A DNA stretch of 64,000 nt from Balneolaceae bacterium. Lineage in GTDB: Bacteria > Bacteroidota > Rhodothermia > Balneolales > Balneolaceae. The notes under the pieces were generated by a model, which was not told the origin of the DNA, ran no database searches, and was given only the letters and a program-made list of their open reading frames with translations. Shown here piece by piece: positions 5,758-48,762 of this stretch. Positions within the stretch are counted from its first letter, which is position 1. Each line of letters begins with the position of its first letter. The stretch covers positions 248,001 to 312,000 of the forward strand of contig JAEPNO010000001.1 of the NCBI GenBank assembly GCA_017643365.1. The letters run 5' to 3'. The translations under genes were made by a program, and so were the position numbers.

Positions 5758-5947
5758 GATAGCGGGTTAGGAAGTGATCTCTATATCGAATTCGTTGGGC
5801 ATACGTCTTTCGTCATCCGTCGTATTTCCTTCGTCCTTAAATCCCTGTTGTTTGCCGGTCAACTAAAGCCATTCACAGAGCAGGTTTGCAGAAGTGGGCA
5901 AAATCTCTCAGATTGCATGGGTATCTATCCTAACACTAATAAATGCT

Positions 5948-6361: not shown

Positions 6362-6407
6362 ATGAGAATTTGTGGGCTAAATGATTTTTGCTAGCTTAGC
6401 CCCACTT

Positions 6408-6668
6408 ATGAGCTCAAAGTCGTCCATTCCAAATACACTTATTTTTTCGGGGAGTTCTCCTCACCTTAAAAAGCGCACCTTTGTTGCGGTAGGCATTCTA
6501 TTTCTGGTTCAATGTTGCCTTATCTGGCCGATCTTTCCACTCTTTGCCGATCCCGAGCCCTTAATTCTGGGATTTCCTCAACCATTTGCCTGGGTTATTT
6601 TAATGGTGTGCATTTCGTTCACAACCTTGCTCATGCTTTTCCTAAAAGACAAAAAGGAGCAAGGTTAA
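6408..6668 (+). CDS. Small two-TM membrane protein, DUF3311-like symporter partner
   Basis: An 86-aa protein with two hydrophobic helices (about residues 25-45 and 60-80), separated by FADPEPLILGFPQPFAW and ending in LKDKKEQG. This layout, and its position three bases upstream of a sodium:solute symporter gene, match the DUF3311 family of small partners of such symporters. I chose the ATG at 6408; an in-frame ATG at 6381 adds nine residues (MIFASLAPL) with no clear purpose. It is presumably co-transcribed with the symporter and would be orphaned if that gene is truly dead. Confidence 0.65.
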   Translation: MSSKSSIPNTLIFSGSSPHLKKRTFVAVGILFLVQCCLIWPIFPLFADPEPLILGFPQPFAWVILMVCISFTTLLMLFLKDKKEQG

Positions 6669-6671
6669 GTC

Positions 6672-32137: not shown

Positions 32138-32638
32138 ATGGCAGGATATACCGAAGTTTTACAAGCAATGCTGGCAATGGTAATAGTTTCATTTTTAGTA
32201 ATAAATGCAAATAGAGCCATTGTCGTAAACAATCAAACCATAGTGGATGGTGAGTTTGAGAATCAGATTGTTGCCATAGCACAAGATTTTATAGAGGAAT
32301 CCCGCTCTTCTACTTTTGATGAAAACACCACTGATGGAGATGTTCCTGTAAATATACCGGATGGATTTTCAACCATTGGTCCGGATGGCGGCGAATCATC
32401 CCGGGCAGACTTTGATGATTTTGACGATTACGATGGTTGGAATGAAACCATAACTGCTTCAGGTGGCGTTGAATATGAGGTTGAGATTGAAGTTAATTAC
32501 TATAAAGATGGAGCTGTAAGCAATCAAAAATCTACATTAAAACAGATGATTGTAAACATTTCATCTGATGACCTCACAAAGAATGGTATTGTGAGCAGGT
32601 ATTCATTCAAATTTTTAAGAAGTTTTTATGCTGATTAA
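32138..32638 (+). CDS. PilV-like single-TM pseudopilin-like protein, set 1
   Basis: A 166-aa protein with an N-terminal hydrophobic helix (YTEVLQAMLAMVIVSFLVINANRAIV, residues 4-29) followed by an extended region containing QIVAIAQDFIEESRSSTFDE. That layout, a helix running into a Gln/Ala-rich amphipathic segment and then a beta-rich domain, resembles type IV minor pilins of the PilV/GspI kind. However, I see no Gly-Phe-Thr-Leu-Ile-Glu type prepilin peptidase site, so it may be an ordinary membrane-anchored protein with a pilin-like fold. It is paralogous to the protein at 34471-34890 and abuts the next gene (TAA directly followed by ATG). It opens the 17-gene run that ends with the motor-like genes. 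Confidence 0.6.
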   Translation: MAGYTEVLQAMLAMVIVSFLVINANRAIVVNNQTIVDGEFENQIVAIAQDFIEESRSSTFDENTTDGDVPVNIPDGFSTIGPDGGESSRADFDDFDDYDGWNETITASGGVEYEVEIEVNYYKDGAVSNQKSTLKQMIVNISSDDLTKNGIVSRYSFKFLRSFYAD

Positions 32639-33253
32639 ATGGATTTAGGAATTGTAACAAGTTATATCATTGCAGGAATACTGATTATTATCATTTTAAC
32701 CGTAGGTTATAATGTAAACTTCAGTGGAAATGAACTCACACTGCACGAATCTCAGAAAATTAAAATTGATGCTGTGATCGATGCTGTAAGCTATGATTTA
32801 CCCAAAATTGGATATAATCAGAACAATCGTCCGGATACCATGCTGGTGTATGCAGATTCCACAATGCTGCAGTTTTATTCCAATATAGATAACAGCAATG
32901 ATGAATCACTTGAGTTGATTACTTGGCAATTTTCAACCGACCCTATTACTGCCACCGATAACCCGAACGACTTTTATCTTTACCGTACCATCGACGGTAC
33001 TAGCATAACCATGGGAGTAGGAATCACAGATTTTACTATAAATTATTATGATGAATTAGGGTCCACTACCCCTCTTACGCTACCCATCTCAGCTATAGGA
33101 AATAAATCAAAAATAGATTCAATTGTTCAGCTTGAGTTAATTATCGAAAGTCAGAGTCCGGTTGCATTGCAGTATTCCTCTGAAACGACCCCGAGATATA
33201 TTACAACAACCTGGACTAAACGATTCTCACCATCCAACTTAAATTTAAATTAG
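32639..33253 (+). CDS. PilW-like single-TM pseudopilin-like protein, set 1
   Basis: A 204-aa protein with an N-terminal TM helix (VTSYIIAGILIIIILTVGYNV, about 5-25), then the sequence IDAVIDAVSYDLPKIGYNQNN and a beta-rich domain ending TPRYITTTWTKRFSPSNLNL. Two blocks are shared with the protein at 34894-35475: a NPNDFYLYRT / NPNDYYLKRT motif and a closing T/K-R-F/I-P-N-L strand. The helix-then-DLxKIGxN arrangement resembles PilW-type minor pilins, but no prepilin peptidase cleavage motif is seen. It lies between the PilV-like and PilX-like members, six bases ahead of the latter. Confidence 0.58.
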   Translation: MDLGIVTSYIIAGILIIIILTVGYNVNFSGNELTLHESQKIKIDAVIDAVSYDLPKIGYNQNNRPDTMLVYADSTMLQFYSNIDNSNDESLELITWQFSTDPITATDNPNDFYLYRTIDGTSITMGVGITDFTINYYDELGSTTPLTLPISAIGNKSKIDSIVQLELIIESQSPVALQYSSETTPRYITTTWTKRFSPSNLNLN

Positions 33254-33259
33254 GCGCTT

Positions 33260-34363
33260 ATGGGACGAGGAATGATAATTTTAGCGATCGGCGCTTTTAT
33301 GGTTTTAGGATTAATCCAATTCAATTTATTTGAACACCGCGAGCGTATTCAAACCTTTAATTCAGATTACGCAAAAGAAATTCAGTCAAAAAATGTTGCA
33401 CATACAGCCATTCAGTTGGCAATGGAACAAATTAATGAAGACCCAACCTGGCAACCTACTTCAGCTAACCCATGGACTCGGGAAATAGACGATGCATATA
33501 TAGAGCTTTATTACGATGTATTGGCAACCGGAGCCGGACCAACTGATCCGGATTCCATCAGAATTTACAGCACTGCCTGGTATGGTGGCAGAGGAACTAA
33601 AGGCTCTGCAGAATACAAAGCTAATTCTGAATCACACCAAATAGTAAGTACTTATTTAAAATCCGGTTTACATTTTGTTCCTGAAGCTGCGGGCGGATTA
33701 GGATTAGCAAGTGGAAATTTCACCTTTAATATGAGTGGTAGTGCATCAATTAGCGGGAATGATGCCTCAGGTACATGCGATGATATTCCTGCAATTACCG
33801 TTCCCACACTGGATGACTATATTGAAGTTGTTGATGGCGCGAATTTTAGTAATATGGAGAGCAGTGAAGATTTAGTTGCCATCGATCCCGACATCTCATA
33901 CAGTCCTGTTGATGAACTTATTGAGCGGTTATCAAACGAACCGGGTGTTGTTGATGTAAGCGGAAATTATAAAGGGGATTTCGGTTCAGAAGATGAGCCC
34001 GGGATATTTTTTGTTGAATCATATGCAAAATTAACCGGTGGAATTCCGGATGGATACGGAATTATGGTGATTCGGTCCGGAGGTGAATTAGAATACGAAG
34101 GAGCATTATCCGTATCTGGTAATTTTACTTTTAACGGCCTGATTATCTTTGAAAATGCTTTTGATTTCACTGGTAAAGGCACCCCCGATTTAAATGGATC
34201 TGTGTTAATTGGTAATACGCCGGGAAACAACACAACGCTTGATATAGACCTTGGTGGTTCCATCAATATTCAGTACGATTGTCAGGCGATTGATTATGCA
34301 CGGGTAGCGTCAGCCACACATCTAAAACAGAATCGATATACAAGGGTTAGTACATTCGAATGA
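33260..34363 (+). CDS. PilX-like membrane protein with a beta-helical C-terminal domain, set 1
   Basis: A 367-aa protein starting MGRGMIILAIGAFMVLGLIQ (one TM), followed by KEIQSKNVAHTAIQLAMEQINEDPTW, a helix characteristic of PilX/GspK-like N-termini. The C-terminal 150 residues (YGIMVIRSGGELEYEGALSV then GNFTFNGLIIFENAFDFTGK and GTPDLNGSVLIGNT) have repeating short strands of the kind seen in PilX-associated DUF4900-like or bactofilin-like domains. Its paralogue is at 35485-36960. A 107-base gap follows, so set 2 may have its own promoter. Confidence 0.58.
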   Translation: MGRGMIILAIGAFMVLGLIQFNLFEHRERIQTFNSDYAKEIQSKNVAHTAIQLAMEQINEDPTWQPTSANPWTREIDDAYIELYYDVLATGAGPTDPDSIRIYSTAWYGGRGTKGSAEYKANSESHQIVSTYLKSGLHFVPEAAGGLGLASGNFTFNMSGSASISGNDASGTCDDIPAITVPTLDDYIEVVDGANFSNMESSEDLVAIDPDISYSPVDELIERLSNEPGVVDVSGNYKGDFGSEDEPGIFFVESYAKLTGGIPDGYGIMVIRSGGELEYEGALSVSGNFTFNGLIIFENAFDFTGKGTPDLNGSVLIGNTPGNNTTLDIDLGGSINIQYDCQAIDYARVASATHLKQNRYTRVSTFE

Positions 34364-34470
34364 TGTTAAATAGATTCTAATGTAACAAACCGCCTTTTGG
34401 CTTCCACATTAAAGCAAGCTAACTACATCTAAGATGTAAAGCGTTTATTTTAATCTATAAATTTAAGGCA

Positions 34471-34890
34471 ATGAGCAGTTACGCTGAACTTACTTACTTG
34501 ATCGGAGCAATGGTTATTTTTGGGTTTTTATCCCTTAATACCGCTCGTAGTTTCAATTCCGGCCGTCAGGCTATTTACCAGGCTGAAGCAGAATACCGAG
34601 CTATCGCTGTAGCACAAGACGAACTCGATAAGGTGCAATGGATTTATGATTCGGATGAACTCGATCCAAACAGTGGTGATTATGTGTACGCTAATTATCC
34701 GATCAATGAAGTTCATAATTACGGAGATAGTGATCAGTATAACTCAACGTTTATTATTAATGGAACCTCAGAATTGATCGAAGATACCGGCTCCATGAAA
34801 AAATATCAGGTTACAGTATCTGTTCTCAATCAAAACGTAACTCCTGAGGTGTTTATCACCCTCGAATACGTTAAATCCTATACTTACTAA
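34471..34890 (+). CDS. PilV-like single-TM pseudopilin-like protein, set 2
   Basis: A 139-aa protein built like the first member of set 1: N-terminal helix YAELTYLIGAMVIFGFLSLN (4-23), then AEAEYRAIAVAQDELDKVQW and a beta-rich domain ending VFITLEYVKSYTY. The alignment with the 32138 protein is clearest at xYxEL...AMVIxxFLxxNxxR and IAVAQDxxxx. No prepilin peptidase motif is seen. The start at 34471 is followed three bases after its stop by the PilW-like gene, so the set is operonic. Confidence 0.58.
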   Translation: MSSYAELTYLIGAMVIFGFLSLNTARSFNSGRQAIYQAEAEYRAIAVAQDELDKVQWIYDSDELDPNSGDYVYANYPINEVHNYGDSDQYNSTFIINGTSELIEDTGSMKKYQVTVSVLNQNVTPEVFITLEYVKSYTY

Positions 34891-34893
34891 ATC

Positions 34894-35475
34894 ATGAATG
34901 CAGGACTTGCCATAACATTTGTGATTGGTGGATTGTTTATGATCTCTATTTTGAACTTTAATGCTCAAGTGATCAATCAAACCCAAGAACTTACACTAAG
35001 TACAATTAACCAATCTAATTTGGATAATCTGGTTGATGTACTCGCTAATGATTTTAATAAAATTGGCTTTAATACTGGTACAGCTGTGCCTTTTACCACT
35101 ATTAGTGATAAAAACATCATTTTTCAAGCCGATGTGTACGACAACGACAGTTATGGCTCTACAAACATTCGCTGGTTCTTTGATGTAAATGATGCTGTTA
35201 GCAGTACCAACCCCAACGATTATTATTTAAAACGAACAGGCCCAATTGGTACAAGTTCGTACGGAACTATTGAGTTCCCGGTAGTTTATTTCGACTTAAA
35301 CTATTACACCGCCGATGGTACCCCAACCAATGATTTGGCATCTGTAAAAAAGATTGAAGTTGAATTGATGATAGAAACCGTGGAACCCTATACGGTAACA
35401 GGAAGCACCAAAGAATATCCTCGATTGATTTGGAAACGCATCTTTGTACCAAACAATATTAACCTACCATATTAA
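34894..35475 (+). CDS. PilW-like single-TM pseudopilin-like protein, set 2
   Basis: A 193-aa protein with TM helix LAITFVIGGLFMISILNFNA (about 5-24), then NLDNLVDVLANDFNKIGFNTG, a beta-rich domain with NPNDYYLKRTGPIGTSSYG, and the closing RLIWKRIFVPNNINL. The same three landmarks are present in the set 1 paralogue (32639-33253): DVLxxDxxKIGxN, NPNDxYLxRT and a terminal basic strand followed by NxNL. It is nine bases upstream of the PilX-like gene, which has a good AGGAGAAG ribosome site. Confidence 0.58.
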   Translation: MNAGLAITFVIGGLFMISILNFNAQVINQTQELTLSTINQSNLDNLVDVLANDFNKIGFNTGTAVPFTTISDKNIIFQADVYDNDSYGSTNIRWFFDVNDAVSSTNPNDYYLKRTGPIGTSSYGTIEFPVVYFDLNYYTADGTPTNDLASVKKIEVELMIETVEPYTVTGSTKEYPRLIWKRIFVPNNINLPY

Positions 35476-35484
35476 GGAGAAGTT

Positions 35485-36960
35485 ATGGGAAGAAGTTTAT
35501 TATTTCTCGTAAGCGGATTAACGATTATTACCGGAATTGTACAGGTAAATAATCAAGAGCGATTGACTGCAATACCGGTTGTAACAACCGATTACTACAA
35601 AGCACAACAGGCTAGAAACTTGTCGAAAAGTTTAATCGACAATGCCGTTGAAACCATGAAAGACAATAACAACTGGACCGGCAGCATCGATATTGATGAT
35701 GTTGTTGATACAAAAGCATTGGTTTCTCGTTCGTCTGATGGCCGAAAAAAATTAAGCCTTGGCTTGTTAAACTTAGATCAAGTATTAGCCATTGAAGAAG
35801 AGCTAGAAGATCAACTTGAAGAAAATACAGGAATACAATTACCTGTTAACCTAAACGGTACGTTAACGAGTTATACGCAAAACAGCCAGGATATGCCTAA
35901 TAATAGCGTAGGTAGCTGGGATGAATACAAAGTGTTATTAGTAAGCTCAAGCACTTACGATGACGTTGAGGTTACTACCGAAGTACTAATGCAACGCGAT
36001 TCATTTAGTAAATACTCTTATATGACTCAATCTGAATTAGGCGCTTCAGGTAATACCATTTGGTTTATGGACGCCGATAATATTTATGGACCAATACATA
36101 CCAATGGCGAGTTTGCTATGTCTGGTTCTCCTTCGTTTTATGGATTAGTTACCAGCCCGAATATGTGGAGAGCGCACGAAACTAATCCAACAAGTCCAAA
36201 TTTTTATGGTGGCGAGAATTTTAATGCCCCACGTAAAGACGAACCGACTTCTTATGAAGTAAATCGCCTTGTTGATGCCGCCAACGATGGTGGGAAAAGA
36301 TATTCAGGAGATATAGACGTTGACTTTTATTACGATGCCAACGGTGGATACGCTGATATTTCTTACGGTGGTTCTCCCGGAAATGGATGTGCAAACTGGA
36401 TGTGGTGGTGTACTCCTATCCCTCCTACGGCCCCTTCAGTTGAAACAGTAAACTTAGCTAATATCAATGGCGTGATTTCTACCGATGGAGAAATTACCGT
36501 TGAAGGAAATGTGAATGGCGATGTTACACTTCACTCGGAAGACAAAATCGAAATTATTGGCGATATCGTTTATAAAACCAGCCCTCTCGATGATTCAACT
36601 TCAACAGATTTGTTAGGTTTAGTAAGTGAAGGCAATGTCATTGTAGACAGATACGCCCACACTGCATCAGGTACTCAAGATCTTACTGTACATGCTTCTA
36701 TAGTTGCCTTAAATACCTCGTTTACAGTAGAGAATTACAACTCTGGTGGAAACAAAGGCACCTTAAATATGTTAGGTGGAATTATTCAGCAAAATAGAGG
36801 TCCTGTTGGCACATTTTCTGGTAACACTGTTGTTTCAGGTTATTCGAAAAACTATCAATACGACAACCGATTAAAAGCTAGTATTCCGCCATCTTTTCCA
36901 AGAGAAAGCGTATTTTCTATCGTATATTGGAAAGACGAAGTAACTAAAATAACTGAGTAA
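35485..36960 (+). CDS. PilX-like membrane protein with large extracytoplasmic domain, set 2
   Basis: A 491-aa protein with N-terminal helix MGRSLLFLVSGLTIITGIVQ and the PilX-like helix YYKAQQARNLSKSLIDNAVE. The large C-terminal part contains FMDADNIYGPIHTNGEFAMS and SPSFYGLVTSPNMW, the DUF4900-type landmark (a beta-helical, bactofilin-like domain), and further repeated strands (GVISTDGEITVEGNVNGDVT, IEIIGDIVYKT). Ribosome site AGGAGAAG lies just upstream of the ATG at 35485. It is the second and longer copy of this family in the run. The role is unknown; a surface or envelope scaffold that partners the pilins downstream is plausible. Confidence 0.6.
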   Translation: MGRSLLFLVSGLTIITGIVQVNNQERLTAIPVVTTDYYKAQQARNLSKSLIDNAVETMKDNNNWTGSIDIDDVVDTKALVSRSSDGRKKLSLGLLNLDQVLAIEEELEDQLEENTGIQLPVNLNGTLTSYTQNSQDMPNNSVGSWDEYKVLLVSSSTYDDVEVTTEVLMQRDSFSKYSYMTQSELGASGNTIWFMDADNIYGPIHTNGEFAMSGSPSFYGLVTSPNMWRAHETNPTSPNFYGGENFNAPRKDEPTSYEVNRLVDAANDGGKRYSGDIDVDFYYDANGGYADISYGGSPGNGCANWMWWCTPIPPTAPSVETVNLANINGVISTDGEITVEGNVNGDVTLHSEDKIEIIGDIVYKTSPLDDSTSTDLLGLVSEGNVIVDRYAHTASGTQDLTVHASIVALNTSFTVENYNSGGNKGTLNMLGGIIQQNRGPVGTFSGNTVVSGYSKNYQYDNRLKASIPPSFPRESVFSIVYWKDEVTKITE

Positions 36961-37455: not shown

Positions 37456-37953
37456 ATGAAAAAGGCATTTTTAATTTTACTAATTTTCATTTTTCCGGCA
37501 ATAAGTCATGCTCAGGAGAGTACAGAACTTAGAGCAGAGGTAAATATTAATGCACAAATAATTAGATCAATTGATCTGATTACAATAAATACCATGACCT
37601 TTGGTAATGCTCAGCCTGGGCAAGAGAGACTTTACGTAAATCCAATTAATGACGTAAATTCTGGATTTATGGTAGCATTAGGCACACCGGGTGCTGCATT
37701 CCGACTTGATTATTTAAATGAACGAAGACTTACACAAATTGACGGGCCGGGTTTTTTAATTTTCAGATACGAACTTTCTGGAAATTCTGTTGAAGAACAA
37801 TCTTCTTCTGAATTACTTGAGGTTGTAAACCGTAACCTTCAATTTAATAATGAAGGAAGATATTATTTTTGGGTTGGCGGTGAAGTAAACATTGAAAATG
37901 CTCTCCCAGGTAATTATGAAGGTGATTTCACTATTGAAATAGACTATATATAA
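37456..37953 (+). CDS. DUF4402-like pilin subunit 1
   Basis: A 165-aa exported beta protein with signal peptide MKKAFLILLIFIFPAISHAQ. The N-terminal region (LRAEVNINAQIIRSIDLITI, then MTFGNAQPG) and C-terminal strand match the DUF4402 family, which occurs as pilin subunits with chaperone-usher systems. The C-terminus is GNYEGDFTIEIDYI: a Gly 14 residues from the end and a penultimate Tyr, with alternating hydrophobics, as in classical chaperone-recognised pilins. A ribosome site (AGAAGAGG) precedes the ATG at 37456. Its stop overlaps the start of the next pilin by one base (TAATG). It is one of four such subunits here, likely minor. Confidence 0.75.
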   Translation: MKKAFLILLIFIFPAISHAQESTELRAEVNINAQIIRSIDLITINTMTFGNAQPGQERLYVNPINDVNSGFMVALGTPGAAFRLDYLNERRLTQIDGPGFLIFRYELSGNSVEEQSSSELLEVVNRNLQFNNEGRYYFWVGGEVNIENALPGNYEGDFTIEIDYI

Positions 37954-38543
37954 TGTATCAAAAAGTAATTTTAATATTACTACTTACAATTACTCATGTT
38001 AATTTATATGCTCAAGAATTAAACTTTGGTAGCGACTATAGCTCAATATATTCTGTTTCTATATCTGATTTAAACCCAGGATTGGATCTTGATTTTGGCT
38101 TGCTAGCTAAAAACGAAGGAGTCAGTAGCTTATCAATGAACGAAAGCAAAGTAATTTCAATTGAAGGTGTTCGATATCTTGATGTTTATGTAGAGATCAT
38201 GGCTGATGAGTATTTACTGAAAGATGGAAACCCGTCTTGCGCAACTAATCCAAGTTGCAGAATTCCATTTACTTTACAGGCTGCTTATGCTAACCGAGGG
38301 CAAAATAATACCGCACAAAGCACAATCATGAACGTGTTAAGCTTTACAGCTACTGCTCTTTTCCCCATAAAATATAGAGGGAATGCACCGCCCGGCCCAC
38401 CTCCTACCCCTGTTTATTCTGGCTACAACCCGGCACTTTTTAACGAAACTGCCTACTTATATATATACGGTTCTATCAATGTGGGTAATGTTGATGCTGG
38501 AAGTTACACTTCAGATATCACCATAACTGTATCTTATGACTAG
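37953..38543 (+). CDS. DUF4402-like pilin subunit 2
   Basis: A 196-aa exported beta protein with signal peptide MYQKVILILLLTITHVNLYAQ. It has NPGLDLDFGLLAKNEG near the N-terminus, a Cys pair (NPSCATNPSCRIPF) that could form a disulfide, and the C-terminus GSINVGNVDAGSYTSDITIT then VSYD, with Gly at -14 and penultimate Tyr. It overlaps the previous gene by one base and the next by eight, so the three small pilins are translated as one unit. Probably a minor or tip-proximal subunit; the Cys pair sets it apart. Confidence 0.72.
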   Translation: MYQKVILILLLTITHVNLYAQELNFGSDYSSIYSVSISDLNPGLDLDFGLLAKNEGVSSLSMNESKVISIEGVRYLDVYVEIMADEYLLKDGNPSCATNPSCRIPFTLQAAYANRGQNNTAQSTIMNVLSFTATALFPIKYRGNAPPGPPPTPVYSGYNPALFNETAYLYIYGSINVGNVDAGSYTSDITITVSYD

Positions 38544-39066
38544 AATAAGATCATATGTAGGGTTTATCATTTTATCTGTTTTATTCAACAGTAGTGCAAG
38601 TGCTCAATTTTTAAATTTTCAAATATCCATTGAACCTGAATTGAGTGCTACCGTTGAACGAGAGCTTAATTTTGGAACAGTTATTACAAATTCCGGCGAA
38701 AAGTATATCGATTTAGGGGATGTTGATATGGGAATATTTAGAATAAGAGCGTATTACACTCAAAATATCTTTGTTTCATTTACCCCCCCAGAAGCTTTAA
38801 GACACATAAACCCTTCTGTTGATGAAGAAATACAACTAGATTTAAACATCGCTTATAATAATATATCACGCAATGTAAGAGATGCTTTAATATTAGATGA
38901 TAATATTGGTTTTCTATCTTTTGACAGTAATTTTAATGTAAACACTGCACGTACATCCGATGTTTGGGAAGAAATTGAATTATACGTTTACGGCTCAATA
39001 AATGTAGGTAATATACCAAACGGTATTTATGAGGGTAATGCAATATTGAATATAGATTATGATTGA
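38536..39066 (+). CDS. DUF4402-like pilin subunit 3
   Basis: A 176-aa exported beta protein with signal peptide MTRIRSYVGFIILSVLFNSSASAQ. Family landmarks: IEPELSATVERELNFGTVIT at the start of the mature protein and VYGSINVGNIPNGIYEGNAI then LNIDYD at the end, again with Gly at -14 and penultimate Tyr. It overlaps the previous gene by eight bases. A 110-base gap with no strong hairpin separates it from the fourth pilin, which probably has its own transcription start. The role is likely a minor subunit of the same fibre. Confidence 0.72.
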   Translation: MTRIRSYVGFIILSVLFNSSASAQFLNFQISIEPELSATVERELNFGTVITNSGEKYIDLGDVDMGIFRIRAYYTQNIFVSFTPPEALRHINPSVDEEIQLDLNIAYNNISRNVRDALILDDNIGFLSFDSNFNVNTARTSDVWEEIELYVYGSINVGNIPNGIYEGNAILNIDYD

Positions 39067-39176: not shown

Positions 39177-39701
39177 ATGAAAAAGCTTAATCTTTTATCC
39201 GCCTCATTACTTGCTTTAGTACTTACTTTTAATGCTAATGCACAAACTTCAGATTCAGATAACATTTCTGCAACTGCTACTGTAGTAGGTGCAATTTCTG
39301 TAACTCCTGTTGATGCACTTGATTTTGGAAGCATTTTATCATCCGAAACTCCAGCAATTGCTGCTACCGATGCAAACTCAGGTTCAGCAACCATTACTGC
39401 AGAAGATGGACAAGTTGTTAATGTAACTGTTACATTTCCAACAACATTAACTGGTTCTTCAGGAAGTTTAACTCTTGGAACATTCGATGTAAACGTTGAC
39501 AATGATGGTGCCGTTCGCGCTGGTTCTGCCGACTTAACTGGTGAAGCAATTACTGGTACTAATAGTGAAATTTATGACGGTACATACACTGCTTCAGGTA
39601 CAACTGCTACTATCTTTGTAGGTGCAGCGATTACTACTAACAGTGGTGTTGCCGGTGTTGATTACTCAGGTAACGTATCTGTTGCTGTTGATTACAACTA
39701 A
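39177..39701 (+). CDS. DUF4402-like pilin subunit 4, probable major shaft pilin
   Basis: A 174-aa exported protein with signal peptide MKKLNLLSASLLALVLTFNANAQ and a low-complexity, Thr/Ser/Ala/Gly-rich acidic mature part without Cys. It follows the DUF4402 pattern (VVGAISVTPVDALDFGSILS at the start, GVDYSGNVSVAVDYN at the end); penultimate Tyr is kept and the Gly is one residue off (-15). It is set apart from the other pilins by 110 bases upstream and by a strong intrinsic terminator 26 bases downstream, the arrangement expected of the highly expressed major subunit. That is inference from context. The gene is followed by chaperone and usher. Confidence 0.75.
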   Translation: MKKLNLLSASLLALVLTFNANAQTSDSDNISATATVVGAISVTPVDALDFGSILSSETPAIAATDANSGSATITAEDGQVVNVTVTFPTTLTGSSGSLTLGTFDVNVDNDGAVRAGSADLTGEAITGTNSEIYDGTYTASGTTATIFVGAAITTNSGVAGVDYSGNVSVAVDYN

Positions 39702-39839: not shown

Positions 39840-40685
39840 ATGTCTATTACTATATTAAAACGGGTTACACTTACAATTGCGTTTGTGTTGCTTTGCACAA
39901 ATCTTAAAGGGCAAGTTACCATCGCCCCAACTAATATGTTCTTGAGCGACAGTAATCCTTTTGGAACATACATGGTTATTAATGGTTCGAGCGAAGCACA
40001 GGAAATTTCAGTCGATTTTCTATTTGCTTATTCTGCAACCGATGAAAATGGTAATCGAAGAATAATTCAAGATGATTCCACCTTTGCAGAGAATCATTCA
40101 ATTGCTAATAAAGTAAGGGCGTTCCCTCGCAACTTCACTTTAGCACCTGATCAGCGTCAAATTGTTCGGTTAAGATTATCTGACACAAATAGTCTTGAAG
40201 ATGGTACTTATTGGGCTAGAATTAGAACAAAATCGGTTCCAGAAACTCCACCAATCGAGGTTCAAAATACTACCACTGTTTCAGCTAGAGTTGGCATTAC
40301 CTTTGAGCAAGTAACTGGCTTATTCTTTAAAAAAGGTAATGTAACAACAGGTATTGATATTAAAGACATCAAAACTGAAATTAATGCGGAAAACCAAAAT
40401 GAGTTGATTGTACTTGCTGATTTTGATCGTACAGGCAATTCACCATTTCTTGGAACAATTACTATGTCTATTCGTGATTCTAATAATCGTGAATTAGTTT
40501 CTGACTTTGTTTCAACATCACATTATTTTGGTGGTACTCACCGTCAGACACTAGATATATCTAGTCTAACCAATGGAAACTATCAACTAACCGTTGAGTT
40601 TGCTACTAAAAGAACTGACGTTTCTGAAGCTGATTTAGTAAGAATGCAACCCGTAAGAAAATCAATATCATTCACTAAAAATTGA
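39840..40685 (+). CDS. Periplasmic PapD-like pilus chaperone
   Basis: A 281-aa exported protein with signal peptide near 5-24 and two Ig-like domains. The chaperone pattern reads VTIAPTNMFLSDSNPFGTYM at the N-terminus, then RAFPRNFTLAPDQRQIVRLRL (the P...F.L.P...Q..R pattern of strand F), YWARIRTKSVPE, VSARVGITFEQVTGLFFKKG at the domain boundary, and a C-terminal Ig domain. It would bind pilins in the periplasm and hand them to the usher. The Arg used by PapD to grip the pilin C-terminus is not obvious (N is found near that site), so it is a divergent member. It overlaps the usher start by four bases. Confidence 0.8.
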   Translation: MSITILKRVTLTIAFVLLCTNLKGQVTIAPTNMFLSDSNPFGTYMVINGSSEAQEISVDFLFAYSATDENGNRRIIQDDSTFAENHSIANKVRAFPRNFTLAPDQRQIVRLRLSDTNSLEDGTYWARIRTKSVPETPPIEVQNTTTVSARVGITFEQVTGLFFKKGNVTTGIDIKDIKTEINAENQNELIVLADFDRTGNSPFLGTITMSIRDSNNRELVSDFVSTSHYFGGTHRQTLDISSLTNGNYQLTVEFATKRTDVSEADLVRMQPVRKSISFTKN

Positions 40686-43678
40686 TCAAAAGAAAATTAT
40701 CTCGGTTTCTTTCTTTTCTTTCAATAATACTTTTCACACAGTCATTATCTAATCTTTCTTATTCTCAATCAAACGACCCCTTTGAAGTTTATTTAGATTT
40801 TAATCATAGGGGAATCATTAACACTGTAGTTATTAGCTACTATGCTGACGATACCTTCTACCTTCCCGTTAATGAGATTTTTAATTTATTTAATATCGAA
40901 GCTGACTATGATGGTTTAACCATTAGCGGAAGATTTTCAAGTGAACAAATTGAATATTCTATAAATCTTGAACGTCAGGTTATCGTTTTTGGTAATGAGA
41001 GCTATAAGCTTGAGGTAGAAGATTACTATTTAAACGAATTAGATGTCCACTTACCCATCAGATTATTTTCTGAAATATTCGATTTAAATTTTAGTGTTGA
41101 TTTCAATCAGCTTTTGCTAAACCTAGAAACTAATGTTGAACTCCCTATCATTCAACAGGCTTTAAGAAATCAAGAGCGTAGAATTTCTAATACTACTGTA
41201 ACAACTCCAAGATATCCTCTTTATCAGTCCCGCTCCTCAAATAAATTAATCGACTTGGGTTTCTTAGATTATGGTGTTCAATACAATACAGACGGTAACG
41301 AGCAAATTTTGAACATTAGTAATTCTATTGGATTAAATTTACTTGGTGGTGACTTAAGTGGTAATGTATTCGCAAATATTAATAATCAAATCTCATCTTA
41401 CGAAACAGATAATTTAAGATGGGTTTATACCTCAACTGAAACTCCATTGTTTACCAATATTAGTATTGGTCAACTCAATTCAGACGGTGTATTAATGTCG
41501 CCATATATGGGGATCAGAGTATCAAATGAACCCATTATACCAAGAACTTTATTTGATGAGTTTGAGGTATCCGGTACAGCAATTCCTCAATCTGAAGTTG
41601 AGTTATATTTAAATAACAGATTAGTTGGATTTTCAAGAATTGATGATTCAGGTAACTACCGTTTCTTGATTCCAATTTCGTACGGGAACTCACAAATTGT
41701 GCAAAAAATTTATGGTCCAACTGGGCAAGTGAAAGAACAAAATACACGACTTCAAATACCATTTAACTTTGTACCCAAAGGAGAAATCAATTATAACCTC
41801 AATATTGGACAATTAAATAATTTTATTATTGGTTCTACCCAGGTAAATAATATTGGGCAATTTAATACGAGTGTTGGTATTACTAGTTGGCTTACCGCAA
41901 AGCTTGGTGTAGAAAACTATTATAATGATTCATCTAATAATACGTTTTTTACAAGTACAATTTCTTCAAGAATTAATACAAATAATATTTTCACTCTCGA
42001 GGCAGTTTCTGATAGCTATCTACGTGGATCATTAAACTCAATTTTTCCAAATTCGACCAGCTTAGGAATCGATTATGTTAATTATAAAAACAACTCAAAT
42101 TTCTATAATCAATCGAATTATAATTGGCAGTTAGTTACTACCACTTTTATACCGTTTAAGTTAGGGAGCGTTCCATTAAACGTTCGAGCTTCGAGTTTTT
42201 TAAGAAAAAGAGAAACCGGATATTTCAATACACTAAGATTTGATTTAATAAGCAGAATTAAAAGATTAAGCTTTAGGACCAGTTATAGTGATCAACAAAT
42301 AGATGAATTTAATCCGTTTAATTCATCAAACTTATCTAAAATAGAATCATCAGCTAGCTATTCTTTTGAAAGATCAAGAGAAACCTTACAGTTCTTTAGA
42401 GGAGCTACTCTTAGGTCGCAGCTAGTTTATTTTATTGGAATAAATGAATTTAAATCTGCAGAATTATTCTTTACTAAAAACGTCTCTGAAAATGGACGAT
42501 TTCAAATATCTGTAGGAAGAGATTTTAGCGGGGACTTTAATACTATTCGGTTTAATCTCATATTTAATTTTAAAAATTTCAGGTCAAATACTACTTTTAA
42601 TAGTTTAAGAGGTGCTTACAGTGTAGCCCAGAGCCTAAGAGGCTCTATTGGCTATGATAGTAATACCAATAACATATTATTCTCAAACAGAGATCAGGTT
42701 GGTAGAGGGGCATTATCAACAAGAATGTTTTTAGACAATAATAATAATAGAGTTTATGATAAAGATGTTGACGAAATCATCCCTGAAGTTTCGTTACGAA
42801 TAGACCGAAGTGGTACAAAAACGGAAAGTAAAAATAATGTGATTTATAACTCATTGATTCAGCCAAATATTAGGCTAAACGTTGAAGTAAATAAAGCAAC
42901 CATTAAGAATCCAATGCTTGTACCCGAAGTGGATAAGTTTTCGATTATTACTGAACCAAATAAGTATACATCTGTTGATATTCCATTTTTTCAGGCTGGA
43001 GTTATTGAGGGAATTGTGGAAAGGCAATTTGAAGATGGAGTAACAGATGGAATTGGTGGTCTTAAAGTTCTTTTAACATCTCAAAAAGATAATACTGTTA
43101 AAGAACTTCGCACATTTTCTGATGGAAGTTTCTATGATTATCCACTACCACCTGGTAAGTACACCTTACAAGTTGATAACCAACAATTATCTTTTTTACA
43201 AGCTACATCTAAACCCGAAAAAATAGATTTTGAAGTAGAAGCGGTGACAAATGGTGACTTTATAGAAGGCTTAAGTTTTGTATTAATTCCTGATGCTGAT
43301 GCCGAACAAGATCAACAAACAATCCAAGAACAGATCACCATCGCGCAGGTAACCGACGAGATCAAATCGTCGCCTGAAATATTAGAATATTCTCAGGAAG
43401 TATTTAAAGAGGTGGATGATGCATTACGACTTATAATTCATGCGCAGAACGCATTTTATTCCAATAACATAGACCTAGCCTTCCGATTTGTGAGCGAATC
43501 ATTAGAACTTTTTGAAACTGCACAAGGACACGCTTTAAAGGGAAGTTTTTATTATTTTGAAGGTAATATCGACCAGGCGCAGCGACATTGGGAACAAGCA
43601 CTCCGGTTTAATCCTGATTTAGTAATACCAGATATGGAATTACTGGAAGAACGGGTTAATAGGCGTGCATCAGACTAA
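40682..43678 (+). CDS. Outer-membrane usher with C-terminal TPR tail
   Basis: A 998-aa outer-membrane usher that would secrete and polymerise the pilins; classical ushers are 800-850 aa. Start TTG 40682 overlaps the chaperone stop (TTGA), indicating translational coupling; signal peptide FLSFLSIILFTQSLSNLSYS. After an N-terminal domain (DPFEVYLDFNHRG...FYLPVNEIF) comes a beta-barrel with a plug-like segment near 297 (SGTAIPQSEVELYLNNRLVG, GNYRFLIPI), then FLDNNNNRVYDKDVDE near 683, a carboxypeptidase-like C-domain (GIVERQFEDGVTDGIGGLKV), and an extra C-terminal helical tail, about 912-995, with TPR character (AQNAFYSNNIDLAFRFVSES, ALKGSFYYFEGNIDQAQRHW). The tail resembles the TPR protein at 45537-46064. 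Three 60-base lines in this gene count 32, 22 and 38% G+C, against 45% for one line in pdhB. Confidence 0.8.
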   Translation: MIKRKLSRFLSFLSIILFTQSLSNLSYSQSNDPFEVYLDFNHRGIINTVVISYYADDTFYLPVNEIFNLFNIEADYDGLTISGRFSSEQIEYSINLERQVIVFGNESYKLEVEDYYLNELDVHLPIRLFSEIFDLNFSVDFNQLLLNLETNVELPIIQQALRNQERRISNTTVTTPRYPLYQSRSSNKLIDLGFLDYGVQYNTDGNEQILNISNSIGLNLLGGDLSGNVFANINNQISSYETDNLRWVYTSTETPLFTNISIGQLNSDGVLMSPYMGIRVSNEPIIPRTLFDEFEVSGTAIPQSEVELYLNNRLVGFSRIDDSGNYRFLIPISYGNSQIVQKIYGPTGQVKEQNTRLQIPFNFVPKGEINYNLNIGQLNNFIIGSTQVNNIGQFNTSVGITSWLTAKLGVENYYNDSSNNTFFTSTISSRINTNNIFTLEAVSDSYLRGSLNSIFPNSTSLGIDYVNYKNNSNFYNQSNYNWQLVTTTFIPFKLGSVPLNVRASSFLRKRETGYFNTLRFDLISRIKRLSFRTSYSDQQIDEFNPFNSSNLSKIESSASYSFERSRETLQFFRGATLRSQLVYFIGINEFKSAELFFTKNVSENGRFQISVGRDFSGDFNTIRFNLIFNFKNFRSNTTFNSLRGAYSVAQSLRGSIGYDSNTNNILFSNRDQVGRGALSTRMFLDNNNNRVYDKDVDEIIPEVSLRIDRSGTKTESKNNVIYNSLIQPNIRLNVEVNKATIKNPMLVPEVDKFSIITEPNKYTSVDIPFFQAGVIEGIVERQFEDGVTDGIGGLKVLLTSQKDNTVKELRTFSDGSFYDYPLPPGKYTLQVDNQQLSFLQATSKPEKIDFEVEAVTNGDFIEGLSFVLIPDADAEQDQQTIQEQITIAQVTDEIKSSPEILEYSQEVFKEVDDALRLIIHAQNAFYSNNIDLAFRFVSESLELFETAQGHALKGSFYYFEGNIDQAQRHWEQALRFNPDLVIPDMELLEERVNRRASD

Positions 43679-43679
43679 A

Positions 43680-45521
43680 ATGCACAGAATACGTCACATA
43701 TATGCCTCTATGCATGCTAAAATTCAACCAAATTTTGGCCTGACATTCCTTTCTTTTGTATTTCTCGTTGCTCTTCTTTTACTCCCTTTCGAAAATGTTC
43801 GCTCTCAAACTTCTTACGATGCATCTAGCTCACAGTCGCTAGATTTACGAGTTTCTAACTTAGAACAGCAATACGACTCCCAAATCATTCAAATTCTTTC
43901 TAACTACTTTAACAGAAAGAAATTCTTTATCGATGTTAACATAAACGCTGAATTAGTTGAACAAACTATTGGTACAACAAGTAATCAAGTAGTATCAAAT
44001 AGCCAACCCGAAGAAAATCTGATGATGCCCGGGTTACCCTTTTTACCCCAACAAAACTTAAGGCAACCTACCCGTCGAAACACTCAACCACAAACGGTTG
44101 TAAACGAAAATACGATCAAAACACTGCGGATTGTAAACATGAGTGTTAACATCTATGCAGATACTTCGATTACTACCGCACAACTGGAGTTGATGCGCTT
44201 TATCACGGGAATTGCTGTAAAGGTAAATGAAAACCGCGGCGATGAAATCAACATCAATCAACTTGCAATCCCCGACTATACCGAAGCACCTGAACCTGTT
44301 ACAGCCACAACGGTAACCCAACCGCCTGCCCTTCCCGATTACAACTCGATATACACGTATATTCCTGCCTTAGCGCTCATGTTACTATTTGGGTTAACCT
44401 TGCTGTTCAATCGAATCATGAACAAGCCTCAGCCTCAAATGCCGATGCGGGATTTCAGAGAATCGTTTAAAAATGATATGGCTTTTCAGCAACAGGCTGC
44501 ATCACAAACTGCATTAAGCACTTCTACTGATGAAAGAATAGAAGAAACGGAAGAAGACTTATCAGCTGAAGAACTTGTAAATGCATTCTTTACCAAGCCC
44601 GATGAAATCGCCACTATTTTTAGATATTGGTTAAGCGAAGAGGAAAACGGAGCTAAAAAAGCAGCTGAATATTTAGTTGCCGTAGATAAACACTTGCTCA
44701 GAACGTTGAAAAAAGAACTGCACCCAGAAGATTACGATACGTTGACGGATGCAGTTATAGAGCAGGAAAAACTATCACCGGAAAAACGTGCAGAAATTAT
44801 TCAGGAATTCGGTCGTATGCTTCAGCAAGGAGCTAAACAAACCGTTACTGAAAAGAAACGAAGTAAGTTTTCTTTGTTTAAATTTTTGGATCATATTTCA
44901 GACAAGCACATCCTTACTTTGCTTGAAACAGAGGATAGTTTATCGGGGGCGTTTATTCTGCAATATATTCCCGATGATAAAGCTGCCATTTTGATTGAGA
45001 AACTGGATAAAGAAATTGCTGCTAAAATCATGCTTCATATGGCGTCGTTGAATAATCTTACGAACGAACAGCAGCATAAAATTTCATCCGAGCTTTTTGA
45101 TAAAGCGATGGATCTTGTTGAGGCAGAACGTAGCGAACAATACGGTGCAGAGCATCTCTATCCTATTCTTGAGCGTCTTCCGGTTAATGAACAACAACGA
45201 TATATTGATGAGCTTAAAGCAACCGGTTCTATAGTAGGTGCAATTCTTGAGAAGCAGTTTATCACAATTGATAAATTACCGGAATTAAGCGACGAAGTGA
45301 TTAAGAAAGCTGTTCGAACTTTAAATACCGAAACCTTATTAGATGCAATTTTTGGCCTTCCACCCCAAGTTGTTGATCGAATTTTATCTGCACGACCTAA
45401 GCGCGAGCAACGGTTATTGCGAATGGAATTAGATGAGCTTCAAGGAACCTCAGGTCGCCAAACAGAATATGCCAAAGCCTTGTTGATGAACTCAATTCGA
45501 AAGAATGCAAATGACCAATAG
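43680..45521 (+). CDS. FliF-like/FliG-like fusion protein (putative rotor)
   Basis: A 613-aa protein whose halves recall FliF and FliG. An N-terminal hydrophobic segment (NFGLTFLSFVFLVALLLLPF) is followed by a periplasmic part with FliF C-region character: IIQILSNYFNRKKFFIDVNI, then LRIVNMSVNIYADTSITTAQ and VNENRGDEININQLAIPDY. A TM helix at about 227-246 leads into a cytoplasmic part with three FliG-like blocks: N (from ~297, EELVNAFFTKPDEIATIF; LSPEKRAEIIQEFGRML), M (from ~402, ILQYIPDDKAAILIEKLD; AAKIMLHMASL) and C (from ~530, LSDEVIKKAVRTLNTETLLD; PKREQRLLRMELDELQ, whose charges parallel the FliG torque helix). ATG 43680 follows the usher stop by one base; an in-frame GTG at 43665 is less likely. 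The EHPQ motif of FliG is degenerate. FliG homology is my reading and needs profile confirmation. Confidence 0.72.
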   Translation: MHRIRHIYASMHAKIQPNFGLTFLSFVFLVALLLLPFENVRSQTSYDASSSQSLDLRVSNLEQQYDSQIIQILSNYFNRKKFFIDVNINAELVEQTIGTTSNQVVSNSQPEENLMMPGLPFLPQQNLRQPTRRNTQPQTVVNENTIKTLRIVNMSVNIYADTSITTAQLELMRFITGIAVKVNENRGDEININQLAIPDYTEAPEPVTATTVTQPPALPDYNSIYTYIPALALMLLFGLTLLFNRIMNKPQPQMPMRDFRESFKNDMAFQQQAASQTALSTSTDERIEETEEDLSAEELVNAFFTKPDEIATIFRYWLSEEENGAKKAAEYLVAVDKHLLRTLKKELHPEDYDTLTDAVIEQEKLSPEKRAEIIQEFGRMLQQGAKQTVTEKKRSKFSLFKFLDHISDKHILTLLETEDSLSGAFILQYIPDDKAAILIEKLDKEIAAKIMLHMASLNNLTNEQQHKISSELFDKAMDLVEAERSEQYGAEHLYPILERLPVNEQQRYIDELKATGSIVGAILEKQFITIDKLPELSDEVIKKAVRTLNTETLLDAIFGLPPQVVDRILSARPKREQRLLRMELDELQGTSGRQTEYAKALLMNSIRKNANDQ

Positions 45522-45536: not shown

Positions 45537-46064
45537 ATGATTAATAGGCCTGCTTTACTGTTGTTTTTATTTTTTAGCATTTTCATTCTTCACTGCTCTT
45601 CCAGCATTCAAGCTGTTGATCCGATTCCCGAAGAAAACACTCTTTCTCTAGAAGATTCCTTACAAATAGCACTGCAGGACAGCATTGATCAAGCACAGGC
45701 TAAAGAAGAAGAGCTTCGCAATGCGCTAATTGAATTATATAAAGACGAAATTTATTCGCGGTATCAAGCCCAAGCTAATACACTCACCAATTACTACATT
45801 TTAGCCCAACAGCATTTTTACTCGGGTGATTATGAAAATGCATTATTTCTTATCAATCGAGCCGCGCTTATCAAAGAAAATGCGGATGTTCTTGCATTGC
45901 GAGGTAGCGTTTACCTTGGTTTAGGATATATCAATGAATTTGTAAATCATTGGAGACGAGCCCTTGAATTGGACCCCGAAGTTCCCATACCTTCTTCAAC
46001 ATATATCATTCAACAATTGCAGAACAATGGTCTAATCGACGAAAACTTAAAAAAGAGTTTCTAA
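45537..46064 (+). CDS. TPR-like lipoprotein or exported protein
   Basis: A 175-aa protein with signal sequence PALLLFLFFSIFILHCSSSI; the Cys could be lipidated, although His at -1 is unusual for a lipobox. After an acidic coiled-coil-like part (SLQIALQDSIDQAQAKEEEL) the C-terminal half has TPR-type helices: YYILAQQHFYSGDYENALFL, VLALRGSVYLGLGYINEFVN, HWRRALELDPEVPIP. The same pattern (AQxxFYSxNxxxAxxxxxxS, ALxGSxYYxxGxIxxxxxHW) is the C-terminal tail of the usher. It sits 15 bases after the FliG-like gene and 6 before the MotA-like gene, and so is a probable envelope linker between outer-membrane usher and inner-membrane motor. That role is inferred. Confidence 0.68.
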   Translation: MINRPALLLFLFFSIFILHCSSSIQAVDPIPEENTLSLEDSLQIALQDSIDQAQAKEEELRNALIELYKDEIYSRYQAQANTLTNYYILAQQHFYSGDYENALFLINRAALIKENADVLALRGSVYLGLGYINEFVNHWRRALELDPEVPIPSSTYIIQQLQNNGLIDENLKKSF

Positions 46065-46070
46065 CCCTGA

Positions 46071-46868
46071 ATGCGTACATCAATTCTAAATATTCTATGT
46101 TTTCTTATCTCTTTAGTAGTACTGGTGTGGGGTGCGCTACTTGTTACAGGGTATACCCAATATGATCTAATTCCTTCTAGATTAGCATTCTTGAATATCC
46201 CAAGCCTTGCTATCGTTTTCGGGGGTATCACCGCTAGTGTATTTATTAGTTACCCGTTTAATAGCGTAGTTAAAGCGCTGGTTGAAAGCACCAAACTCTT
46301 TTCCTATAGTACCATCACCCATGAAGTGCTGGAAGAAGACATCCAAAGAGTGATGGATTGGCAGAAGATGATCAAACAAGATAAATATGCGGCAGTGAAT
46401 CAATTAAGCGAAGAATATGCTGATCGATTCGAAGGCTATTTATTCTCCATTCTCGACACCAATTACGACACTGAAGATTTACGCGAGCTTGGCGAAATCA
46501 ATATCGAAGAAAATTATAGTCGCCAGCAGATGGTAAATCAGATAATTGCCAGTATGGGTAAAACCTCACCGGTTTTTGGTATGCTGGGTACACTTTTTGG
46601 GTTGATTGTGATCTTATCCGGATTTAGTGAAGTGGAATCATTATTAAGTGGATTAGGAGCTGCTTTAATGACAACATTGTATGGAATCCTGATCGGAAAC
46701 TTCATTTTCACACCTATGGCTAAGAAGATGAACAATGTTGCCTCACTTCGATATTTTAGAGAGAAGCTAATTCTGGAGGGCATCATTCTTATCGAAGAAC
46801 AAAAAACATCTCTACAAATTTACGATAAGCTACAGGCACATATGCGCCGCAACAAAAATATGCTTTAA
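46071..46868 (+). CDS. MotA/TolQ/ExbB-family stator subunit, MotA-like
   Basis: A 265-aa inner-membrane protein of MotA layout: TM helices at about 6-26, 42-62, 165-188 and 195-216, with a ~95-residue cytoplasmic loop between the second and third and a cytoplasmic tail. SLAIVFGGITASVFISYP matches the MotA helix 2 signature (SLxIVxGGTxxAxxISxP), and MGKTSPVFGMLGTLFGLIVI matches helix 3. The two conserved prolines are present at P167 and P215, spaced as in E. coli MotA (P173, P222). These position the ion path with the MotB Asp. The long loop and size favour MotA over ExbB/TolQ/GldL. Placed six bases after the TPR gene and ten before MotB. Confidence 0.88.
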   Translation: MRTSILNILCFLISLVVLVWGALLVTGYTQYDLIPSRLAFLNIPSLAIVFGGITASVFISYPFNSVVKALVESTKLFSYSTITHEVLEEDIQRVMDWQKMIKQDKYAAVNQLSEEYADRFEGYLFSILDTNYDTEDLRELGEINIEENYSRQQMVNQIIASMGKTSPVFGMLGTLFGLIVILSGFSEVESLLSGLGAALMTTLYGILIGNFIFTPMAKKMNNVASLRYFREKLILEGIILIEEQKTSLQIYDKLQAHMRRNKNML

Positions 46869-46878: not shown

Positions 46879-48762
46879 TTGAAGAAAAAGAAACCCATAC
46901 GGATTAAATACTCCCTTTTTCCGATCCAAGATGAAGAATCGGAAGATGATGATAGCTGGCAAGTTAGCTACCTCGATATCATTACGATCGTTTTAGGATT
47001 TCTGATCATTCTCCTTTCTGTCTCTCAAATTACTAAATCAGAATTCTCTTCCCTTTCCTCAATATTTGGGAAACTTGCGGATGAAACGGAGTTTCTAACC
47101 ACACCAATTGGTGCTATTGAAAGCGAGTTATTCGAACTGCTTCAGTCTGAAATAGAAGCCGGTAATCTTGAGATTATTCGCGATTTAAATGACTTGAGAA
47201 TTCGTTTTAAAAGTGATGATTTATACGAACCGGGTAGAGCGACCTTTGATTCTGAATCGGAGCAGCTATTGAATACGGTGCTTATTGCTTTACAGCAATT
47301 GGAATACAACGATTTCAGTATTGATGTTGAAGGTCACACCGATAACACCCCAATCTCGTCGGTTGCTTATCCATCGAATTGGGAGCTGTCAACAGCCCGG
47401 GCGGCCAATGTAGTTAAATATTTTAATGATTCTGGAATACCGGCCAATCGTTTGAAAGCATCCGGTTATGCGGATTCTCGCCCTGTTATTGAATACGATT
47501 CCTTAGGTTTTCCTTTTGCCGCGAGTAAGGATAAAAATCGTCGGGTAGTACTTCGACTTTATTATTCTTCGGATAATCTGAAAGAAGAAATTCTAACTCA
47601 GCCTGAAACAGAACAAGAATTGCTAGCTGAAGAAACCAACCAAAGTGAAAGTATTGAAGGCGTAATCCCGGAAATCTCTGATCTCCCTCCTCCTGCTCAA
47701 ACTGAGAATGTTGTTGTATTAGCGGATCAACCGGCATTGCTAACGGTGATGGAAGAAAATCGAATTCAAGAGCAACTTGAAGCAGAACGTGCTGCTGCAG
47801 AACAACGATCTCAGGAAACGGAATCAGAGCCTCAAACTCGGAATAACGAAGCTCGACCAGAGACAACTACTCCTGTTGATACACCGACTGAAAATCAGAC
47901 TGAAAGTGAGCCTGAAGTTACTCAACCAGTGCAAGAACAAATAACAGAACCGGAGCCCGAACCTGCTCCCCCACCAGCGCCTACAAACGCAATGCCTTCG
48001 TTGCTTAAAGTGGATGCACGTTGCCAGTACTCCGTGCAATTAGGCGAATATGGTTCTTTGCAAAACGCATTTCAACGTGCTGAGTCGATAGAGTCTTCAA
48101 ACCTCTCTGATATCATGCTAACTTATAATACTAATGAGTACTCGGTTCGAACTGCTCCCATTTCTTCGTTCTCAGAGGTTTTATCGCTACGTGATGAGCT
48201 TTCAACACGATTTAATGATAAGAACGTGAGTGTGGTGCATCAGTGCTACAATAATACCATAAAGCGCCCGAAAGCAGTGAGGTATCTAATTCAGTTCGGC
48301 GCTTTTCAGAATCGTGCTACTGGTTTGGATTACACCATTGAGCTACTAGATCAATATGGTGTTCAGGCTTATATGAACCGGGTTTCAGATACTTTTAACG
48401 TGTTAACTGGACCTTATGAGTCGAGAGAAGAAGTATTAAGCCAGTTACGAGCTTTCCGCGAAATGGGAATTTCATCTAATCTCTTTATCCGCCATCAACC
48501 GGAAACTGCTGCACCCTATAAATATGCATATCAGATAGAAGTTGCTCAGCGTAACTCTCAACAGGAAGCAAATGAATTAGCGCAACAAGTGCGCTCAAGA
48601 ACCGGAATAAATACTCGAGTTGAAGAACTTGTATCCGGGCGATTTTCTGTAATGACGGGGCAGTCAGTAAATAAAAACGAAACTCAGACAATTTTCAATC
48701 GCCTGTTAAACTCTGGCTTTTCAATAGATCCCGTGATCTTTTATCTAGAGTATATTCCTTAA
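46879..48762 (+). CDS. MotB-like stator subunit with OmpA and three SPOR domains
   Basis: A 627-aa stator partner. Start TTG 46879, basic N-terminus, then a single TM helix WQVSYLDIITIVLGFLIILL with the ion-binding Asp at D33 (YLD, the position of MotB D32). A plug/linker (SSIFGKLADETEFLTTP) is followed by an OmpA peptidoglycan-binding domain at about 110-235 (IDVEGHTDNTPISS, WELSTARAANVVKYF, NRRVVLRLYY). A Glu/Pro/Gln-rich linker (about 240-375) leads to three SPOR domains, starting near 382 (CQYSVQLGEYGSLQNAFQRA), 468 (YLIQFGAFQNRATGLDYTIE) and 548 (YAYQIEVAQRNSQQEANELA). SPOR domains bind denuded glycan strands. The combination would anchor the stator doubly. Typical MotB is about 300 aa; the extension is unusual. 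It is the last gene of the run. Confidence 0.87.
   Translation: MKKKKPIRIKYSLFPIQDEESEDDDSWQVSYLDIITIVLGFLIILLSVSQITKSEFSSLSSIFGKLADETEFLTTPIGAIESELFELLQSEIEAGNLEIIRDLNDLRIRFKSDDLYEPGRATFDSESEQLLNTVLIALQQLEYNDFSIDVEGHTDNTPISSVAYPSNWELSTARAANVVKYFNDSGIPANRLKASGYADSRPVIEYDSLGFPFAASKDKNRRVVLRLYYSSDNLKEEILTQPETEQELLAEETNQSESIEGVIPEISDLPPPAQTENVVVLADQPALLTVMEENRIQEQLEAERAAAEQRSQETESEPQTRNNEARPETTTPVDTPTENQTESEPEVTQPVQEQITEPEPEPAPPPAPTNAMPSLLKVDARCQYSVQLGEYGSLQNAFQRAESIESSNLSDIMLTYNTNEYSVRTAPISSFSEVLSLRDELSTRFNDKNVSVVHQCYNNTIKRPKAVRYLIQFGAFQNRATGLDYTIELLDQYGVQAYMNRVSDTFNVLTGPYESREEVLSQLRAFREMGISSNLFIRHQPETAAPYKYAYQIEVAQRNSQQEANELAQQVRSRTGINTRVEELVSGRFSVMTGQSVNKNETQTIFNRLLNSGFSIDPVIFYLEYIP

Follow-up and report, generated by a model that had tools for sequence, protein, structure and literature searches.

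We propose that the stretch of DNA analysed here (the window, 64,000 nucleotides in length) comes from a marine bacterium and carries the genes of a motorised chaperone-usher pilus, in which a proton-driven rotor and stator of the flagellar type would act on an outer-membrane usher and its pilus, a reading that we consider rather probable. The locus is an operon with the order pilins, chaperone, usher, a fusion of FliF and FliG (FliFG), TPR lipoprotein, MotA and MotB (Table 1). The occurrence of motor and pilus in the same cluster suggests that some bacteria power their hair-like pili with a rotary motor that has been thought to be exclusive to the flagellum.

The open reading frame of the fusion runs from the ATG at 43680 to the stop at 45521, giving 613 aa, with an alternative GTG start at 43665 giving 618 aa, and its layout from the N to the C terminus is a signal or transmembrane segment, one FliF RBM3/beta-collar ring domain, a transmembrane helix and then FliG N, M and C. 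The first-pass annotation of this DNA had read the protein as a FliF-like periplasmic ring part and a transmembrane segment with FliG fused to them, which is borne out by Pfam, by the profile search against PDB and by structure comparison. In Pfam, FliG_N (4.4e-8), FliG_M (3.1e-8) and FliG_C (7.9e-10) all exceed their gathering cut-offs. The C-terminal model of FliF is matched weakly by the window protein (E 0.91) and at E 2e-4 by the homologue L048, and with the NCBIfam fliG equivalog the fusion reaches 49 bits, which is below the cut-off of 227. In PDB, the profile of the family (19 homologues) matches FliG at 2.5e-31 and residues 355-560 of Salmonella FliF at 2e-5, and in Foldseek all of the 31 matches of the AlphaFold model at E <= 1.1e-4 are FliG or FliF. 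With these PDB profile and Foldseek matches, a chance similarity of the fusion to FliF and FliG is ruled out.

Table 1. Features of the motor-pilus locus in the window, with the evidence for each
Feature	Position	Strand	Evidence
Pilin-like subunit A, DUF4402-like	37456..37953	+	Pfam DUF4402 7.6e-4; conserved upstream of usher
Pilin-like subunit B	37953..38543	+	Pfam DUF4402 0.026; synteny
Pilin-like subunit C	38536..39066	+	Synteny; penultimate C-terminal Tyr
Pilin-like subunit D	39177..39701	+	Pfam DUF4402 5.9e-4
PapD-like periplasmic chaperone (probable)	39840..40685	+	Always adjoins usher; weak PapD_N
Outer-membrane usher, 998 aa, FimD/PapC fold, extra C-terminal TPR tail	40682..43678	+	Foldseek
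Usher TPR tail, genetically part of motor	43352..43675	+	94% identity to L037
FliF(RBM3)-FliG fusion, rotor, 613 aa	43680..45521	+	Pfam; PDB profile; AlphaFold model with Foldseek and VIA-align
FliF RBM3 and beta-collar ring-building domain, residues 51-198	43830..44273	+	Match to 6sd1; invariant PGLP, RGD
Second transmembrane helix, residues 224-247	44349..44420	+	AlphaFold helix and hydrophobic sequence
FliG N-M-C, residues 296-612	44565..45515	+	Pfam; FliG chain 8wiw
Torque helix, residues 574-587	45399..45440	+	Alignments; FliG_C of 8ucs
TPR lipoprotein, probably outer-membrane	45537..46064	+	Pfam TPR_2 6.7e-7
MotA-like stator subunit	46071..46868	+	Pfam MotA_ExbB 6.6e-17; NCBIfam MotP/MotA about 1e-30
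MotB-like stator subunit, OmpA-type PG-binding domain and SPOR array	46879..48762	+	Pfam

In the full-length AlphaFold model, the global confidence of which is low (pLDDT 67, pTM 0.31), one transmembrane helix precedes the ring domain, a second one follows it and the all-helical FliG part comes last. Both the ring-building domain and the FliG ARM domains, the lack of either of which would have spoken against the annotated fusion, are present. The ring domain has the topology alpha-beta-(long beta excursion)-beta-alpha-beta, its PGLP and RGD motifs are invariant across the fusion family, and by structure superposition residues 51-198 fit 6sd1 (FliF 231-438) at 2.0 A over 99 aa with Z 13.3. Of the three ring domains of FliF, however, only RBM3 is present together with the transmembrane part, RBM1 and RBM2 being absent from the periplasmic part between the two transmembrane helices, which is one RBM fold only in the AlphaFold model and in the structure comparison. 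Residues 322-613 match FliG chain 8wiw with Z 13.9 and a whole-chain rmsd of 19 A, presumably because the domain orientations differ, while the single FliG domains superpose at 1.9-2.6 A (FliG_M at 1.9 A over 80 aa) and FliG_C from the MotAB-FliG complex 8ucs fits the fusion at 2.4 A over 84 aa. As to the charged torque helix that had been noticed before, the alignment to T. maritima FliG gives R575 as the equivalent of E. coli R281, at least 90% conserved in the 19 homologues, and E583 as the near-invariant equivalent of D289, but at the position of D288 stands M582 and the charge is not kept. The loss of the FliM-binding EHPQ motif was annotated rightly, EDSL being found in its place.

Sequence searches left the identity of the usher unsettled, with a match to Pfam Usher (3e-4) for 1 of 12 sequences and with TPR matches only for the PDB profile. 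It was settled by fold, the 19 best Foldseek matches of its model in PDB all being FimD or PapC (best E 2.7e-24). Its TPR tail is homologous to the TPR lipoprotein (E 4e-11), the family of which has a Cys after a hydrophobic signal. The chaperone family matches PapD_N in 3 of 15 homologues (best 6.7e-4), with no sequence match in PDB for the chaperone, and the pilin-like proteins have weak DUF4402 matches and, for the most part, a Tyr next to the C-terminus. MotB matches MotB_plug (2.1e-7), OmpA (2.5e-15) and SPOR (1.3e-12) in Pfam. The equivalent of MotB Asp32 is present in the homologues listed and that of MotA Pro173 is invariant; in the alignment of MotA, made with the genome's own flagellar MotA, a basic residue lies near position 90 (R90) and position 98 (E98) is uncertain or lost, depending on the alignment, these two being the MotA residues that make contact with FliG. 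It is noted that MotA and MotB lie directly downstream of the fusion, with one TPR gene between, and that the first-pass annotation, while naming the fusion protein correctly, left unsaid its driven partner, i.e., the chaperone-usher pilus locus with its own MotAB.

Comparison with sister species bears on which parts belong together. Between the window and the sister species L037, the identity is 47-65% for the pilins, 56% for the chaperone and 45-60% for the usher core, while it is 94% for the usher TPR tail, 83-97% for the FliFG domains and 96% for MotA; the DNA identity jumps at about 43340, where the usher core and the TPR tail meet, with the left edge lying near 37410. The pair L044/L046 has the same protein pattern. 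This pattern of identity implies that the TPR tail is inherited together with the motor, and the barrel together with its pilins, as would be the case if the tail served as the coupling. The pilins, the chaperone and the usher barrel have been swapped between the sister species, with the usher TPR tail having stayed with the motor.

The usher tail and the ring are also co-inherited on a wider scale. In a survey of intact ushers in 124 genomes of the order, with the classes assigned from match ranges, ushers whose match extends to the end of the model and so includes the TPR tail were present in 25 genomes, all 25 of which have the usher-type ring, while ushers ending near position 880 were present in 46 genomes, none of which has it (G108 and G098, cut or too partial, were left out of the count; the Fisher test of usher tail against ring is descriptive, shared ancestry being ignored). 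A TPR-tailed usher without ring in G127 was considered as a counter-example and rejected, since it is a decayed, internally deleted usher remnant. In the ring-less ushers the tail is of the SPOR type (loci L119-L128 and L130): SPOR domains are present in both of the two tails tested by Pfam, and most of those sampled are homologous to the SPOR array of the window MotB (best E 1e-15). Many of these ring-less loci share a chromosomal niche by the pyruvate dehydrogenase genes, as judged from gene sizes and order, and in the ring-less relatives the genes of the pilins, the chaperone and the usher still look intact. In the usher tree, ushers of the two kinds are intermingled, with at least eight changes of state (L129, labelled ring-less on that tree, is really cut off inside the TPR tail). 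The simplest reading is that the ring would have been lost by a deletion joining the usher to the SPOR array; the usher states may also have originated by gain or by allele exchange. Among the Balneolaceae-type loci, the SPOR wall anchor is borne by the usher in those without a motor and by the stator protein MotB in those with one, the MotB of families f2 and f5 being too short for a SPOR array. A shift of SPOR from usher to stator fits a fixed pilus having been turned into a moved one.

Based on these data, the proposed motorised pilus would work in the following way. The FliF-FliG subunits would assemble into an inner-membrane ring, its RBM3/beta-collar being periplasmic and FliG lying on the cytoplasmic side, and MotA/MotB would be anchored to the peptidoglycan through the OmpA and SPOR domains of MotB. 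Ion flow through MotA/MotB would push the FliG torque helix, turning the ring. The TPR domains of the usher tail and of the lipoprotein, which are homologous, would tie the ring to the outer membrane, implying that the torque would reach the usher and its pilus, and with the wall anchor on the stator rather than on the usher, the usher would be left to follow the rotor. The purpose may be to move the pili on the cell surface or to put them under tension, for instance in adhesion or surface motility. A weak point of the proposal is that no rod or other long periplasmic part spanning from the ring to the outer membrane is known, and also to be counted against it are the state of the MotA E98 position, the weak sequence matches of chaperone and pilins, the low global confidence of the full-length model of the fusion, and the LysM domain on some ring proteins and the retention of the ring in FliG-less loci described below. 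More generally, we lean slightly towards the view that the flagellar-type rotary motor is a transferable module driving chaperone-usher pili, rotating or force-generating, with pilus cassettes being exchanged on a conserved motor via the usher's TPR tail, and with a sister version of the motor that has a different partner in the outer membrane.

The sister version is a second non-flagellar motor in the same genome (L005, contig C33, 6505-11659), with the order FliFG, barrel-like protein, TPR lipoprotein, MotA and MotB and without usher or pilins. G001, a carrier without FlhA, likewise has both motor types. On the RBM3 tree, the members of this second type from Balneolales fall into one group (98/96), and distant relatives in another family of the phylum (L102-L105) have the order barrel-like protein, TPR, MotA, MotB, FliFG. 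The barrel-like protein, probably located in the outer membrane, is the putative partner of this motor; its identity as CsgG was a guess from pattern and was dropped, Pfam giving at most a weak beta-barrel. This pairing of FliFG-TPR-MotAB with a different, probably outer-membrane protein is as expected of a general outer-membrane energiser, and together with the fact that the motor partners are outer-membrane proteins with no energy source of their own it speaks for energised secretion, where the ion-driven ring opens the usher or speeds up the export of pilins while the finished pilus is not moved. We regard energised secretion as unlikely. The sister usher loci without motor or TPR tail keep apparently intact pilus genes, implying that assembly is probably independent of the motor and that the motor more likely acts on the pilus than is needed for its assembly, and it is well established that in other bacteria assembly through an usher proceeds without energy supplied from outside.

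The loci that lack the torque domain bear on a further explanation, in which the ring is a static scaffold or sensor that only positions the usher, with MotAB being a wall anchor or load sensor and no continuous rotation occurring. In four loci (L049, L054, L106 and L109) the usher, the ring and the TPR are present while FliG_C is absent and no MotAB adjoins, so that the ring has a function without the motor. In L052 (2256-4571) and L054 (7895-9430) the N-terminal portion of the ring protein carries a LysM domain, which is difficult to reconcile with a ring that turns freely; L052, of family f5, has full FliG_C and MotAB, and there the LysM domain would tie the rotor to the wall. SPOR anchoring is, moreover, kept in alternative arrangements. 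All of these points would be consistent with a static ring. However, wherever FliG_C has been retained, so have the torque helix and the Asp and Pro of the ion path, and FliG_C and MotAB are lost together: MotA and MotB are present at 32 of the 32 FliG_C loci with enough flanking sequence (the Fisher test of FliG_C against MotAB, with 31 positive loci, is descriptive and ignores shared ancestry), and no spare MotA of the motor family is present in the genomes of the four FliG_C-less loci, the single strong MotA copy of G092 being part of the other locus of that genome, which is complete, G109 and G125 having a distant MotA only, and the G076 genome being only 74% complete. On the RBM3 tree the four loci are on separate branches, implying that the joint loss probably occurred more than once. 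We thus consider the static scaffold improbable. As a side observation, beside the FliG-less ring of L049 a TPR protein with a SPOR-like end (5934-6821) looks like the product of a deletion that took out MotA and most of MotB from between the TPR and that end.

The ring domain is present in 34 of the 244 genomes of the class, all inside the order Balneolales, and the order usher-FliFG-TPR-MotA-MotB is kept in three families (genomes named Balneola, Balneolaceae and Aliifodinibius). The source genome has a true flagellum on contig C50 (FliF, FliG, FliM/FliN, MotA and FlhA), and the FliM/FliN domains of the genome are found in that cluster only, none being at the fusion locus. The earlier remark that no FliM gene was seen is confirmed for the locus, and the non-flagellar setting annotated before stands, with the operon holding usher, pilins, chaperone and MotAB and with the export gate FlhA being absent in at least ten carriers that are each at least 97% complete (G001, G002, G004-G007, G035, G038-G040). 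That FliFG is a spare rotor, serving as an alternative part in the flagellum, as the true flagellum of the source genome could suggest, is hardly tenable and is rejected by the distribution, i.e., by these near-complete carriers without FlhA, besides the absence of EHPQ and of local FliM/FliN and the placing of the operon with the usher. The described family includes both non-motile and flagellated species, with no gliding reported (PMC5167729).

Relative to the flagellar MS ring, FliG and MotAB, the window system shares the RBM3/collar, FliG N-M-C, most of the torque helix charges and the ion-path residues of MotA/MotB, and it differs in that FliF lacks RBM1 and RBM2 and is fused to FliG, in the link to an usher, and in that the locus has no FliM/FliN, export gate, rod or filament. 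To our knowledge, torque generation by FliG and MotAB is known only from flagella. A natural FliF-FliG fusion outside the flagellum has been described in Chlamydia (PMC4768692), lacking the RBM3 (SpoIIIAG-like) part and having FliG_M only (PMC4768692). The window fusion shows the opposite retention, with only RBM3 kept from the ring and with FliG N, M and C and dedicated MotAB. Engineered FliF-FliG fusions in Salmonella, according to the mention of them in PMC4768692, are reported to assemble and rotate; they have a rotor of one polypeptide like that of the window, while being artificial and within a flagellum.

Type 1 and P pili (FimD, PapC) resemble the window system in the usher fold and in the operon of chaperone and pilins, and we know of no motor, ring or TPR tail in them. 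Chaperone-usher pili are regarded as passive fibres. The gliding/T9SS motor GldLM of the Bacteroidota is alike in that ions drive a motor of the inner membrane that works on surface structures at the outer membrane, and unlike in having, as far as we know, no FliG/FliF rotor. We found no description of usher-FliG or usher-MotAB coupling in the open-licence text of PMC. If our proposal is true, the system would be a new class of envelope machine, joining FliG-MotAB to the chaperone-usher pilus also in bacteria without flagella. It would moreover offer a minimal rotor, in which ring and torque part are one protein, for studying torque generation, and would bear on the evolutionary question of how rotary motors come to be uncoupled from surface organelles and coupled to them again.

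Finally, we note two further groups of genes in the window. Next to the pilus locus, at 32138-36960, six proteins with pilin-like hydrophobic N-termini form two similar sets of three, one of the six holding DUF4900, and at 23989-32040 a protein of 2683 aa carries Invasin_D3, DUF2341 and a type IX secretion sorting domain and is possibly a surface adhesin.
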